Shown here one piece after another: positions 12,161-16,825 of a stretch of DNA of 64,000 bases; the first letter of the stretch is position 1, and every line of letters starts with the position of its first letter. The translations under genes were made by a program, and so were the position numbers. This stretch comes from Hydrogenobacter sp. T-8. Its GTDB lineage: Bacteria; Aquificota; Aquificia; Aquificales; Aquificaceae. The notes under the pieces are model-generated. The model was not told where the DNA came from. It saw only the letters and a list, made by a program, of their open reading frames with translations, and made no database searches. Location of the stretch: positions 558,001-622,000 of the forward strand of contig NZ_CP048795.1 in NCBI RefSeq assembly GCF_011006175.1. The letters are read 5' to 3'.

Positions 12161-12445
12161 ATGGTGTTTTCTACAGCTGATGGAATAATGTATAGATTGA
12201 GCGTTGCATGGGAACATCCAAGCCCTTCAAGAAAGTGGTTGATAAACTGTGGGGAACTGGTTTTAGACTTTGTCAAAGAGGAAGTGTGGAAAAGGGGAGA
12301 ACTTATCCTTCAGGAAAAAAGGGACAAGCTTAAGATGATGCTTGAGAGCTTTCTAAGGGATGAGTACGATACAAAGAGCAGAGAAAGGGCCATGAGGAAC
12401 ATTAAGCTTTTGGAGAGGGTGCAAGAGCTTCTAACATCTTCCTGA
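12161..12445 (+). CDS. Hypothetical protein, Lys/Arg/Glu-rich helical C-terminus
   Basis: 94 residues from the ATG at 12161 (alternatives: TTG 12119, ATG 12188; none has a clear ribosome-binding site). The C-terminal half is helical and charged. No family recognised. It overlaps the end of the sigma-54 activator gene on the opposite strand by 44 bases. Confidence 0.45.
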   Translation: MVFSTADGIMYRLSVAWEHPSPSRKWLINCGELVLDFVKEEVWKRGELILQEKRDKLKMMLESFLRDEYDTKSRERAMRNIKLLERVQELLTSS

Positions 12446-13760
12446 GTGTTATCCTGTTTATGCCTAAGATCCTGGCAGTTTTAGATTGGTTTTTATCCAG
12501 TAAGGTGTATGCTTCTTGAACAATAACTGAGGAAAGTTTTTTTAAAAGTTTATGGTATATTCCCTCTTCCCCTCCTTCTATAAGCCTTTTGATCTCCAGT
12601 CTGAGAAGGGTTTCAAGTTCCTCAAGACCTTCCCTGCAGTAATCTACCACCGTAAGCTCAACGTCCCTACTTTTTAGTACATCTCCACTGCTGAGAGCAA
12701 TTGCTCTCCTAAGAACGTTTTCCATCTCCCTTATATTACCAGGCCAACTGTAAGATGTAACTTTTTCCAAAAACTCCCTTGTATAACCTCTTATCCTCTT
12801 CCCCATTTCTTTAGAAAGGTTTTCTATCATACAGTTGAGCAAGATTGGAATATCCTCCTTCCTATCCCTGAGAGGGGGAATGTGTATATGAATGGTGCTT
12901 ATCCTGTAATATAGATCTTCCCTGAACTTACCATCCTTAACCAAGCTCTTTATATCTTTATTGGTAGCACTTATGAGCCTAAAATCGCAATGCACCTCCT
13001 TTGTACTTCCCAGCCTCCTTACCTTCTTTTCCTGTAGTACTCTCAGCAGCTTAGATTGCATGGAAAGAGGCAGGTCTCCTATCTCATCAAGGAAGAGTAC
13101 ACCACCTTTTGCAGACTCTATTAGCCCTTCTTTAGTATGGGATGCACCAGTAAAAGCACCTCGCTCGTAACCAAAAAGCTCTGCTTCAAGAAGTTCTGGA
13201 GGGATTGCCGAAGAGTTAATGGCTACAAAGGGACCGTTCCATCTCCTGGACAATTTCCAAAGAGCTTTGGCAAAGAGTTCTTTCCCAACGCCCGTTTCAC
13301 CGGTTATCAGAACAGGCACATCCAAAGGTGCAGCTTTACCAACGTTTTTCAGTACTTCCTTCATCTTCCCCTCTGGGTTTCCTATTATGGAGCAAAGCTC
13401 TTTACACAGCTCACCAGATAGGTTCTCACCACTGGTAAAGACTGGTATGACCTCTTCCTCGTGATAGATCACCCTCTTAGCTTCACTTATAGACATTTCC
13501 AGATCTTTAACATCAACAGGTTTCAGGAGGACATCATAAAAGCCGAGGCTTATGAGTTTCATAGTGTACCCTGGTAAACGCTTCGCAGTTATAGCCATTA
13601 TGATGTTACCATTCTCTTTTAGGTCTGGAACTGCAGAAAAACCAACAGTATCTACATCCAGTATTACCACAGAGTTCTTGATGTCATCTGGTAATTCTTC
13701 AACGCGCTCTATGCCATCTAAGTAAAGCTCGCAATCTTTTGTGTAGAGCACCACATCCAT
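12402..13760 (-). CDS. Sigma-54-dependent transcriptional activator (NtrC type) with a degenerate receiver
   Basis: 452 residues. N-terminal receiver-like domain (about 1-95) keeps the beta-3 Asp (VVILDVDT, D35/D37) and the Lys (LLKPVD, K80) but lacks the acidic pair after beta-1 (VVLYTKD). AAA+ domain: Walker A GETGVGKE (154-161), GAFTGA loop (201-206) that contacts sigma-54, Walker B VLFLDE (221-226). Fis-type HTH at the end (SKTARILGINRITLRKML). It is divergent from the sulfur-assimilation operon, whose promoter is a sigma-54 element, so it most likely activates it. The signal is unknown. Confidence 0.92.
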   Translation of the reverse strand: MDVVLYTKDCELYLDGIERVEELPDDIKNSVVILDVDTVGFSAVPDLKENGNIIMAITAKRLPGYTMKLISLGFYDVLLKPVDVKDLEMSISEAKRVIYHEEEVIPVFTSGENLSGELCKELCSIIGNPEGKMKEVLKNVGKAAPLDVPVLITGETGVGKELFAKALWKLSRRWNGPFVAINSSAIPPELLEAELFGYERGAFTGASHTKEGLIESAKGGVLFLDEIGDLPLSMQSKLLRVLQEKKVRRLGSTKEVHCDFRLISATNKDIKSLVKDGKFREDLYYRISTIHIHIPPLRDRKEDIPILLNCMIENLSKEMGKRIRGYTREFLEKVTSYSWPGNIREMENVLRRAIALSSGDVLKSRDVELTVVDYCREGLEELETLLRLEIKRLIEGGEEGIYHKLLKKLSSVIVQEAYTLLDKNQSKTARILGINRITLRKMLEALAPSPKA

Positions 13761-13847: not shown

Positions 13848-13864
13848 TTGGCACAGATTTTGCA
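13848..13864 (+). promoter_or_regulatory. Sigma-54 (-24/-12) promoter of the sulfur operon
   Basis: TTGGCAC-N5-TTGCA, an exact match to the RpoN consensus with GG and GC at the required spacing. The predicted transcription start is near 13875, and AGGAGG precedes the ATG at 13905. A sigma-54 activator is encoded divergently. Confidence 0.8.
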
Positions 13865-13883: not shown

Positions 13884-13904
13884 CTCAAGATAGGAGGTTG
13901 AAGT

Positions 13905-16547
13905 ATGAAGAGAGAACATTTGGAAGAGATCATAGAAAGGAATCCAAGGGAAAAGCTAAAGGCGGACAAACATCCTCTTGATATAATGGAAGACCTTCCA
14001 AGGCTCATAAGGGATGGTTATGATAAAACTCCTGAAGAGGACCTTGTACGCCTTCAGTGGTACGGACTCTACCATGATAAACCACGGATTGGGCACTTTC
14101 TTCTGAGGATAAAACTACCAGGTGGCATGTTAAGCCCGAAACAGCTTAGAGAAATAGGTTCACTTGCTAAGAATTTTAACGACTATGCGGAGCTTACAAC
14201 CCGTCAGGACATACAGCTGCATTACATAAGGCTTGATGACCTTCCTCTGGTGTTTAAAAGATTGTCCAGCGTTGGACTCTTTCCCGTTGGATCCTGCGGT
14301 GATACAGTAAGGAATATAACAAGCTGTCCTGTCGTTGGTGTAGACAAGGATGAGCTCTTTGATGTCAGAGAGTGCATAGGGGAGCTTGAGAGCTTCTTCC
14401 ACAACCCTGAGAACAGGAAGTACTTTAACCTACCAAGAAAGTTCAAGATAACCATATCAGCCTGTCCTTACCACTGCAATTATCCGGAGATGCATGACCT
14501 TTCCTTTGTTGGGATGGTAAAGGATGGAGTTGAAGGCTTTGCAGTATGGGTAGGCGGTGGGCTTTCATCAACGCCAAGGCTTGCAAGGAAGCTTGGCATA
14601 TTCATCCCAAAGGAAAAGGTCTTAGAGGTGGCAAAGGCAGTTGTAGATATATGGAGCGAAGAGCCAGAAAACAGAAAGTCCTTTGTAAAGGCGAGGATAA
14701 AGTACTTCGTAGACAAGGTAGGAGCAGAAAGGTTTAAAGAGATGCTCTTTGAAAGGCTAAGCTTCACTCCAGAATCCATTAAGGAGGAGCCAGTGGCAAT
14801 AAGGAGGAACTTTCACGTGGGGATTGGAAAACAAAAGCAGGAGGGGTTCTTCTATGTGGGTTTTCCTGTAGAAGCTGGTAGGGTATCTGGCAGTCAGCTT
14901 ATAAAGGTAGCAGAGCTTGCGCAAGCTCTTAACCTTTCCATAAGGATCTCTCAGAGGCAAAACCTGATACTAACAGACGTACCGGAGGAAAGGCTTGAGC
15001 ATGTTATAGAAGGTATGGAAAGGATAGGCTTTAGCTTGAAAAAGAGCATTCCAAGGAGTATCTCCATAGCCTGCACTAGCGACCCCTTCTGCAATTACTC
15101 TGTTGGTTCCTCAAAAGAGTGGCTTTTGGAACTTCTTAACTATCTAGAAGAAAGAATTGGAGATATAGGGGACATAGCAATAGGTGTTGATGGATGTCCC
15201 CATGCCTGCGCCCATCATTGGCTGAACGATATAGGGCTTCAGGCTACCCACATAAGACATCCAGATGGTAGTGTGGAAAGTGCCGTGAATATTGTGCTGG
15301 GAGGTGGTTATGGAAGGCATGCAAGCATAGGCAGGATTGTGGTAAAAAGGGTTCCTTTACCTTTGGCGAAGGAGTACATAGAGAAGCTCATCATAGCTTA
15401 TAAAAGCTCAGCGTATGGAAGCTTTCATGAGTTTATAAAAGCTCATTCTGATGAGGAGCTTTTAAACATCATGCAGGAAAAGAAGGTTATAAAAGAAGAA
15501 GGAGGAAAGGTAAGAGTGAGGATATTTGGGCCTATAAGCAGGTTCTTTGGCGGTCTTTCTGAGGTTGAAGTGTCTGCGAAAACGGTAGAAGAAGCCCTTT
15601 TGAAGCTTGAGGAGGAGTTTGAAGATTTTCGTGGAAAGGCCATTGATGAAAGGGGAGAGCTAAAACCCTTTTTGAAGGTTTTTCTGAATGAGGAGGACGT
15701 AAGGTTCTTACAGGGGCTTAAAACACCCGTTAAAGAGGGGGATGAGATAGCTATGTATCCAGCTCTTGCAGGAGGTTCTCCCATGTACGATGAGCTTGAA
15801 CTTCATGAGCTTGCCATTGAGTACGAGGACAAACCAGCTAAGGATGTGATAGCTTGGGCTCTTGATAGCTTCCATCCAAGGCTTTACATAGCGTGGAGCG
15901 GTCAAGCAGAGGACATGGTTCTACTTGATATGGCTCACAGGATAAACCCACAGGTTAGAGTTTTTACCGTTGACACAGGAAGACTCTATGAAGAAACTTA
16001 CAGGCTTATTGAACGAGTTTACGAGGTATACGGTTTAAGGATAGATGTTTATTTTCCAAACAGTGAAGAAGTTGAACAGATGGTACAGGGATTTGGCGTA
16101 AATCTTTTCTACAAGTCTGTAGAACTAAGACACCTTTGCTGTCATGTAAGAAAAGTGAGACCTTTACTGAGGGCTTTAAGACAGGTGGATGCATGGATAA
16201 CTGGACTAAGAAGGGAGCAGTGGGCAAGCAGGCAAAACATAATGAAAATTGAGGTAGACCATGACCACGGACAGATAGTAAAGATAAATCCCTTGGCAGA
16301 TTGGACAGAGAAGGAAGTATGGAATTACATAAAGGAGAACAAGGTTCCCTACAATGAGCTATACGACAAAGGCTTTAAAAGCATAGGATGTGCTCCTTGT
16401 ACAAGGCCCGTGTCTGAAGGTGAGGACCCAAGGTCTGGTAGATGGTGGTGGGAAAAGGATGCACCAAAAGAGTGTGGTATGCACTGCAGTTTAGAAACTG
16501 GAGGCTTTGAAAGAATAGCTGACAAAGTGCTGGGAGACATAAAATGA
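13905..16547 (+). CDS. Sulfite reductase - MoaD/ThiS-like carrier - APS reductase fusion protein
   Basis: 880 residues in one frame. (1) About 1-535: ferredoxin-type siroheme reductase with duplicated halves; Cys390/Cys396 (CTSDPFC) and Cys431/Cys435 (CPHAC) bind the 4Fe-4S/siroheme centre. (2) About 536-624: beta-grasp MoaD/ThiS-like domain ending ALAGG. (3) 627-880: CysH with Cys745-Cys746, Cys829-Cys832 (GCAPC) for a 4Fe-4S cluster and catalytic Cys857 in ECGMHC, hence APS rather than PAPS reductase. Together these convert APS to sulfite to sulfide and offer a carrier to accept it. Internal in-frame starts with ribosome-binding-like sequences exist at both junctions (GTG 15516, ATG 15783). 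First gene of an operon with SUMT and sat. Confidence 0.9.
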   Translation: MKREHLEEIIERNPREKLKADKHPLDIMEDLPRLIRDGYDKTPEEDLVRLQWYGLYHDKPRIGHFLLRIKLPGGMLSPKQLREIGSLAKNFNDYAELTTRQDIQLHYIRLDDLPLVFKRLSSVGLFPVGSCGDTVRNITSCPVVGVDKDELFDVRECIGELESFFHNPENRKYFNLPRKFKITISACPYHCNYPEMHDLSFVGMVKDGVEGFAVWVGGGLSSTPRLARKLGIFIPKEKVLEVAKAVVDIWSEEPENRKSFVKARIKYFVDKVGAERFKEMLFERLSFTPESIKEEPVAIRRNFHVGIGKQKQEGFFYVGFPVEAGRVSGSQLIKVAELAQALNLSIRISQRQNLILTDVPEERLEHVIEGMERIGFSLKKSIPRSISIACTSDPFCNYSVGSSKEWLLELLNYLEERIGDIGDIAIGVDGCPHACAHHWLNDIGLQATHIRHPDGSVESAVNIVLGGGYGRHASIGRIVVKRVPLPLAKEYIEKLIIAYKSSAYGSFHEFIKAHSDEELLNIMQEKKVIKEEGGKVRVRIFGPISRFFGGLSEVEVSAKTVEEALLKLEEEFEDFRGKAIDERGELKPFLKVFLNEEDVRFLQGLKTPVKEGDEIAMYPALAGGSPMYDELELHELAIEYEDKPAKDVIAWALDSFHPRLYIAWSGQAEDMVLLDMAHRINPQVRVFTVDTGRLYEETYRLIERVYEVYGLRIDVYFPNSEEVEQMVQGFGVNLFYKSVELRHLCCHVRKVRPLLRALRQVDAWITGLRREQWASRQNIMKIEVDHDHGQIVKINPLADWTEKEVWNYIKENKVPYNELYDKGFKSIGCAPCTRPVSEGEDPRSGRWWWEKDAPKECGMHCSLETGGFERIADKVLGDIK
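15770..15785 (+). promoter_or_regulatory. Internal ribosome-binding site and start codon for CysH alone
   Basis: AGGAGG (15770-15775), 7 bases, then ATG (15783-15785), in frame, at the exact start of the CysH domain. The AGGAGG also encodes the Gly-Gly of the carrier domain. Separate production of CysH is possible. Confidence 0.5.
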
Positions 16548-16825
16548 TCAGAGTTTGGTGTGTCTCAAAAGATTTTGAAAAGGAGCTTATAAAGAGAGGC
16601 TGGAAAGAGGGAAAGTTCGATGGCCGGAGGTGCCTAATGAAGGAATTAGGAAGCTGGTTATGGATTTGTCTCCTTTCAGACCAAGAGGTGAAACTTGTAT
16701 CTTTTCCCATAGAAGATAGCTCAAGGGTCCACTCTGAAGGTATGAGGAAATTGATAGAGGAACTGAAGGAGGTCTCTGAAGTTATGGACTTTTCCCTTTC
16801 TGCGAGGATGGAGTATGGGAGCTGA
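16544..16825 (+). CDS. Hypothetical protein in the sulfur-assimilation operon
   Basis: 93 residues, no signal peptide. Notable motifs are VWCVSKDFEKELIKRGWKEGKFDGRRCLMKE and a central LWICLL; three cysteines in all. No family recognised. It is translationally coupled on both sides: its ATG overlaps the fusion-protein stop (16544-16547) and its end overlaps the TauE gene by 11 bases. Such fixed coupling to the reductase suggests an accessory role such as maturation, carrier handling or regulation, but nothing in the sequence proves this. Confidence 0.6.
   Translation: MIRVWCVSKDFEKELIKRGWKEGKFDGRRCLMKELGSWLWICLLSDQEVKLVSFPIEDSSRVHSEGMRKLIEELKEVSEVMDFSLSARMEYGS

Follow-up and report, generated by a model that had tools for sequence, protein, structure and literature searches.

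A relic cysH start inside a sulfite reductase-carrier-CysH fusion gene of Aquificaceae and a predicted route to maturation of the fused protein

Background

In the window analysed here (a stretch of 64,000 nucleotides from the genome of the heat-loving bacterium Hydrogenobacter sp. T-8), one open reading frame joins a siroheme sulfite reductase (SiR), a ThiS/MoaD-like, ubiquitin-like carrier (Ubl) and CysH in a single chain. ThiS/MoaD-type carriers work via a free Gly-Gly end, as is established for MoaD and CysO. The fused carrier, a beta-grasp-type domain, has Gly-Gly at its end as well, and this end is not free as encoded. The dependence of such carriers on a free Gly-Gly end has been documented (PMC4326299). 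Each joint of the fusion bears a Shine-Dalgarno (SD) motif and an in-frame start codon, and a preliminary description interpreted this as three genes fused by loss of stops while keeping their starts, able to make the whole fusion, carrier-CysH and CysH alone. The locus thus raises the question of whether the two sites are, or ever were, gene starts, and how the buried end of the carrier could be released. No paper on a SiR-carrier-CysH triple fusion was found in a literature search that left most subscription journals uncovered.

Results and discussion

Domain structure of the fused gene

The features of the gene are collected in Table 1. Pfam matches in the frame were NIR_SIR, ThiS and PAPS_reduct, and NCBIfam matches were cysH and APS_reductase. 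The AlphaFold2 model of the 880-residue protein had a mean pLDDT of 87.9 with confident domains, and pLDDT fell below 50 in three stretches, namely the two linking peptides listed in the table and residues 852-856. The SiR part, of the siroheme, 4Fe-4S type, matched PF01077 and PF03460, its cysteine motifs CP-HAC and CPYHC are invariant across the fusions, and its nearest solved structure is M. tuberculosis NirA. The sequence models for SiR are common to nitrite reductases; the context (CysH, Sat and SUMT genes) favours sulfite over nitrite as the predicted substrate. The carrier scored 46.9 bits against PF02597 (cut-off 22.5), and its best PDB sequence matches include CysO-type proteins (CysO, 3dwg). 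CysH was above the curated cut-offs for APS reductases (TIGR02055, 275.5 bits vs 235.3; PRK02090, 288 vs 154), with assimilatory APS reductase 2goy as the nearest solved structure, and no second CysH was found in this genome beyond the fused domain. Besides the fused carrier, the genome encodes a ThiS ending in GGG, a MoaD ending in GG and a free CysO-like carrier ending in GG-YR.

Table 1. Features of the fused gene (positions in the window; residues of the 880-residue protein)
Feature	Position	Strand	Source
Triple-fusion ORF, 880 aa: SiR + ThiS/MoaD-like carrier (Ubl) + CysH	13905..16547	+	ORF list, Pfam, NCBIfam, AlphaFold2
AGGAGG, 7 nt before the real start ATG 13905 and serving as its ribosome-binding site	13892..13897	+	
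SiR domain, residues 1-525	13905..15479	+	
SiR/carrier linker, residues 527-533, disordered (pLDDT < 50)	15483..15503	+	AlphaFold2
ThiS/MoaD-like carrier domain, residues 534-624, ends ...PALAGG	15504..15776	+	
AAGGAGG and GTG at the first joint; GTG = Val538; judged a chance match	15499..15518	+	
AGGAGGT, carrier Gly-Gly codons; cysH ribosome-binding site in split relatives	15770..15776	+	
ATG, relic cysH start; in the alignment, opposite Met1 of the separate CysH of five Aquificaceae	15783..15785	+	
LAGGSP junction peptide, residues 621-626, disordered (pLDDT < 50); predicted to be open to protease cleavage after GG	15765..15782	+	
CysH domain, residues 627-880	15783..16547	+	

The two motifs against the chance background

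Both motifs and start codons lie where the preliminary description had placed them: AAGGAGG (15499-15505) stands 10 nt before GTG (15516-15518), and AGGAGG (15770-15775) stands 7 nt before ATG (15783-15785). The two start codons share the reading frame of ATG 13905, from which they are offset by 1611 and 1878 nt (each divisible by 3), and the GCA-GGA-GGT (Ala-Gly-Gly) codons of the carrier indeed contain the second motif. The 16S 3' end GGCTGGATCACCTCCT was found in the genome, and as this tail carries CACCTCCT, AGGAGG is a full anti-SD match.

To set these sites against chance, we scanned 366 kb of coding sequence from this genome, in 353 mechanically called genes, with expectations obtained by synonymous shuffling. 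AGGAGG was found in frame 4-10 nt before an internal ATG in eight cases (0.023 per gene) vs 11.9 expected, and before any ATG, GTG or TTG in 19 cases vs 38.6 expected. From the latter it can be inferred that internal AGGAGG-start sites are avoided in this genome, which makes an ATG site precisely at a domain joint notable. On the other hand, purine-rich coding sequence could by coincidence create both motifs without either having ever been a start, as GGAGG occurs 868 times in the 366 kb and GGAGGN encodes 27% of Gly-Gly pairs. This explanation holds at the first joint. For the second it is refuted by the five relatives described below, whose actual cysH start is the same GGAGGT with an aligned ATG, so that coincidence at both joints is extremely improbable.

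The first joint

At the first joint, GTG 15516 encodes residue 538, which lies within the first strand of the carrier (residues 536-540 in the AlphaFold2 model). Further AGGAGG-GTG pairs occur in the middle of the SiR part of the same gene (14793, 14817 and 14856), so the pair at 15516 is not notable. None of the relatives compared has AGGAGG with a start codon at this joint; in place of the GTG codon they have GTA, ATA, ATC, GTC, GTT or GTG, the last only in two near-identical genes (G045 and G028) and there without an SD motif. We therefore rejected this site as a gene start, since it is unconserved, sits inside a strand and has three equals elsewhere in the gene, and the sequence comparison indicates that the match is a chance one. 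Moreover, SiR-Ubl is already a single gene in the relatives with separate CysH, and the proposed old gene junction with a kept start is thus abandoned for the first joint.

The second joint and the direction of change

A survey of 136 Aquificota genomes recovered the triple fusion in G000 (the window genome), G025, G028, G029, G038 (two copies), G045, G048 (two copies), G050 and G052, and a split arrangement in G007, G008, G011, G013 and G018. One of the two G048 copies sits on a contig end, which leaves ten full-length genes among the 11 Aquificaceae fusions. In all five split relatives, cysH is a separate gene that begins, in a different frame, before SiR-Ubl ends, with its ATG 5 or 7 nt after GGAGGT, and this GGAGGT constitutes the Gly-Gly codons of SiR-Ubl. 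The SiR-Ubl proteins stop two to six residues past GG (VS, AL, AL, VDNEV and VSDEVR), and the separate CysH starts with M[RK]FDE, which aligns with PMYDE of the window fusion. This alignment shows that AGGAGG/ATG at 15770-15785 and the genuine cysH ribosome-binding site and start of sister Aquificaceae are homologous, so the pair at the second joint does not owe its presence to chance.

In the fusion, the distance from GGAGGT to ATG is 6 nt vs 5 or 7 nt in the split relatives, indicating that a net one-base indel at the overlap put CysH in frame. This is not simple loss of a stop codon, and on that point the preliminary description has to be corrected. What stands of its view is that CysH was once separate and that its start and ribosome-binding site survive; the same view failed for the first joint. 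The later genes of the operon overlap as well (at 16544, 16815, 17576 and 18319), suggesting that the operon is prone to such events. The split relatives are mostly metagenome-assembled genomes (MAGs), and so are the non-Aquificota loci. Sequencing error as the source of the split forms was judged unlikely, because coherent CysH starts with two spacings are common to five genomes.

Quick LG+G4 trees pointed the same way. All ten full-length Aquificaceae fusions grouped on one branch of the SiR tree (support 96), sister to the overlapping split forms (99), and relatives with separate SiR and CysH but no carrier (L069 and L072) fell outside. The CysH tree gave the same grouping with weaker support inside. 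This topology implies that separate CysH is ancestral, and on the basis of these comparisons the fusion is shown to be derived, via a frame-changing indel at a gene overlap. SiR-Ubl proteins of other phyla (Chloroflexota, Actinomycetota, Acidobacteriota, Rhodothermus, Armatimonadota and others) made up their own clade in the SiR tree (100), apart from Aquificaceae. In the carrier tree, for which the alignment had only 90 columns, the SiR-attached carrier of Aquificaceae joined the free carriers of Aquificaceae (99) and not the other SiR-Ubl proteins. Taken together, the SiR and carrier trees indicate that SiR gained a carrier at least twice. The locus can be regarded as a gene fusion caught mid-way: the start codon of the downstream gene and its ribosome-binding site can still be read within the fusion, and living relatives represent the split, fused-with-ATG and fused-without-ATG stages.

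A triple fusion was also seen in an Anaerolineae MAG (L058:4001-6712), with a linker of about 20 residues after GG; as it is placed in the other SiR-Ubl clade, it probably arose in a separate event. Genome G038 has two fusion operons, the second of which (L044, G038:C1:158000-175000) is nearly identical to that of G025 (L045), another genus. With 93% of four-fold codons identical, this suggests recent horizontal transfer. G045 and G028, also of different genera, are identical at four-fold codons.

Does the relic start still initiate?

The relic start could still be in use, giving the full-length fusion and a separate CysH from one gene. The site is the ancestral cysH start, the full AGGAGG stands at the same 7-nt spacing as at the real start, and in-frame internal starts are documented in bacteria and archaea, for example that of Cas11 (PMC11899642). 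Furthermore, none of the four fusion genes of the window's clade (G000, G048a, G048b and G038a) has lost GGAGGT or ATG, despite four-fold codon identity of 43-54% among them. However, these are only 4 of the 11 Aquificaceae fusions; in the other seven, ATG is replaced by ACT, TCC or CCG. GGAGG at the second joint is kept in 8/11, with all three losses among the ATG-less genes, whereas GGAGG at the true start, serving as positive control, is kept in 10/10 full-length genes. The SD motif and start are thus not conserved beyond coding need. Within the clade, synonymous constraint at the second joint was not significant: at conserved Gly columns of the four genes, GGA is kept in 4/9 and GGT in 2/6, which gives the empirical chance of keeping these codons. 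Local codon identity was 0.70-0.73 vs a mean of 0.61, on few columns, and the predicted RNA accessibility at 15783 was merely average for internal starts. Retention of GGAGGT and ATG in this clade is therefore compatible with drift, and internal initiation would in any case leave the carrier unfreed. We consider functional initiation at ATG 15783 unlikely; some free CysH may still come from the relic within the window's clade. The idea of three products made by internal starts is left without support by the loss of ATG in 7/11 fusions, retention that fits drift and a Gly-Gly end that is not freed.

The Gly-Gly end and its predicted release

The Gly-Gly end itself is invariant in 11/11 Aquificaceae fusions. 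In other phyla, SiR-Ubl ends directly at GG-stop in 19 loci and at most two residues past GG in four, so both the carrier with a free end and the stop after GG that the preliminary description proposed to look for do exist, the stop lying somewhat further on in the five split Aquificaceae. The tails found after GG in free carriers of Aquificaceae (none, R, V, M, I, YR, FT, KG, LAL, KGNIQEL and SKIYPF) are variable, as expected of trimmed precursors. An internal start at either 15516 or 15783 leaves GG buried, while a cut after GG frees it, and cleavage is therefore the likelier way to a working carrier.

The window genome has a single JAMM protease (G000:1408699-1409049), which keeps the HxH-x7-S-x2-D motif, and a single MoeB/ThiF-like E1. 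JAMM matches above the family cut-off were almost confined to the two Aquificota families in which the carrier occurs; the exceptions were two matches near 25 bits in another family, in frames of about 230 aa, which may represent a different JAB-fold protein. JAMM presence failed to discriminate between genomes with GG-stop and those with buried GG: 21/23 non-Aquificota genomes have JAMM too, although their SiR-Ubl mostly ends at GG, and its presence is accordingly no proof of action here. The adjacency of asd and JAMM seen in the window genome was absent at the three other JAMM loci examined. The disorder of the GG-SP joint in the AlphaFold2 model signifies accessibility only. The fusion operon of G050 includes a MoeB/ThiF-like E1 as its sixth gene, behind Sat (L043:12026-12841); this E1 is 90% identical to that of the window genome.

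We propose the following model. SiR-Ubl-CysH would be made as one precursor chain, which JAMM would cut after Ala-Gly-Gly, as in MoaX, releasing CysH and leaving SiR-Ubl with its Gly-Gly end free. The MoeB/ThiF-like E1 would then adenylate the freed end, and sulfide made by SiR would be loaded on the carrier as thiocarboxylate. One step earlier, CysH would turn APS into the sulfite that this SiR uses, and the carrier-bound sulfur would go to cysteine (CysM is present in the window genome) or to a homocysteine route. For this protein, cleavage, thiocarboxylate and partners are all inferred. We regard the whole reading, from relic cysH start and derived fusion to one precursor, JAMM cut after GG and E1-dependent thiocarboxylate loading, as reasonably probable.

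Alternatively, the protein could remain uncut as a bifunctional CysH-SiR enzyme, in which the carrier would serve for linking or docking and the start would be a silent relic. Fusion of neighbouring pathway steps is common, and the linker after GG in the Anaerolineae fusion, probably of independent origin, would fit such an enzyme. Nevertheless, neither GG nor the carrier fold varies among the fusions, while other parts of the joint do, and the invariance of GG speaks against an uncut enzyme with a vestigial carrier. Also, the repeated gain of a carrier by SiR implies a job for the carrier that needs its C-terminus, and we find the uncut enzyme improbable. Returning to the cleaved precursor, a wider interpretation can be offered tentatively, with rather less confidence than the model itself: a prokaryotic sulfate-assimilation precursor resembling ubiquitin fusions, matured by a JAMM cut after Gly-Gly, whose SiR would hand sulfide straight to its own carrier arm, in a combination of SiR and carrier that would have evolved independently in Aquificaceae and in the multi-phylum group, and which could feed the homocysteine route of Aquificales. 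Homocysteine synthesis in Aquifex is unexplained (PMC5764234). In line with this, only weak matches to a MetY/MetB-type Cys/Met-metabolism PLP enzyme, and no HcyBio protein, were found in the window genome.

Comparison with known systems

The arrangement resembles the fused molybdopterin synthases M. tuberculosis MoaX and Deinococcus MoaD-MoaE, in which the Gly-Gly of a ThiS/MoaD-type carrier likewise leads straight into a second enzyme. Cleavage of MoaX falls between Gly82 and Ser83 and is required for activity (PMC4326299), and MoaD-MoaE is cut by DRJAMM (PMC8832034). The local sequence at the MoaX cut site (GG|S) is the same as that of GG|SP here. In contrast to these proteins, whose partner is MoaE, the present carrier stands between SiR and CysH of sulfate assimilation, and its cleavage is predicted. 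SiR-ThiS fusions were described in actinobacteria (Nocardioides and Acidothermus) by Iyer et al. 2006 (PMC1779556), who also proposed that JAB/JAMM proteins could cut fused carriers to give a free C-terminus. Like these fusions, the Aquificaceae protein has a ubiquitin-like domain attached C-terminally to sulfite reductase. However, the forms of actinobacteria and other phyla mostly have a free GG end and a separate CysH, whereas the Aquificaceae form arose separately and its GG is buried by CysH.

The Wolinella set HcyS/HcyD/HcyF/Sir likewise includes a sulfite reductase, a carrier, a JAMM protein and an E1 as components by which sulfide is placed on the C-terminus of a carrier. These reportedly constitute a protein-thiocarboxylate methionine pathway, described by Krishnamoorthy and Begley in 2011; PMC5764234 and PMC6225789 cite this work. 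Unlike the separate Wolinella proteins, parts are fused here, and the MetY-family enzyme is absent from the window genome. As for the relic start, Cas11 is made from cas8/cas10 by an internal ribosome-binding site and ATG (PMC11899642), and here too one gene with such a site has two possible proteins; unlike the demonstrated Cas11 start, the present one is the relic of a separate gene and has been lost in most fusions. The fusion offers a testable case of a SiR with its own ubiquitin-like carrier whose working end is buried by fusion, for which a cut after Gly-Gly is a sharp prediction.

Surroundings of the operon

A sigma54-type promoter (TGGCAC-N5-TTGC, 13849-13863) lies 56 nt upstream of the fusion start, and a matching site was present in 13/13 Aquificaceae loci, fused and split. 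The divergent gene of an NtrC-like regulator (12402-13760, minus strand) is kept beside the promoter in most Aquificaceae loci, and together the two suggest sigma54 control of a sulfate-assimilation operon. Finally, a 93-aa ORF of unassigned family (16544-16825) overlaps the fusion stop (ATGA) and is conserved as a neighbour of cysH in every Aquificaceae locus, as well as in some relatives that lack the carrier.
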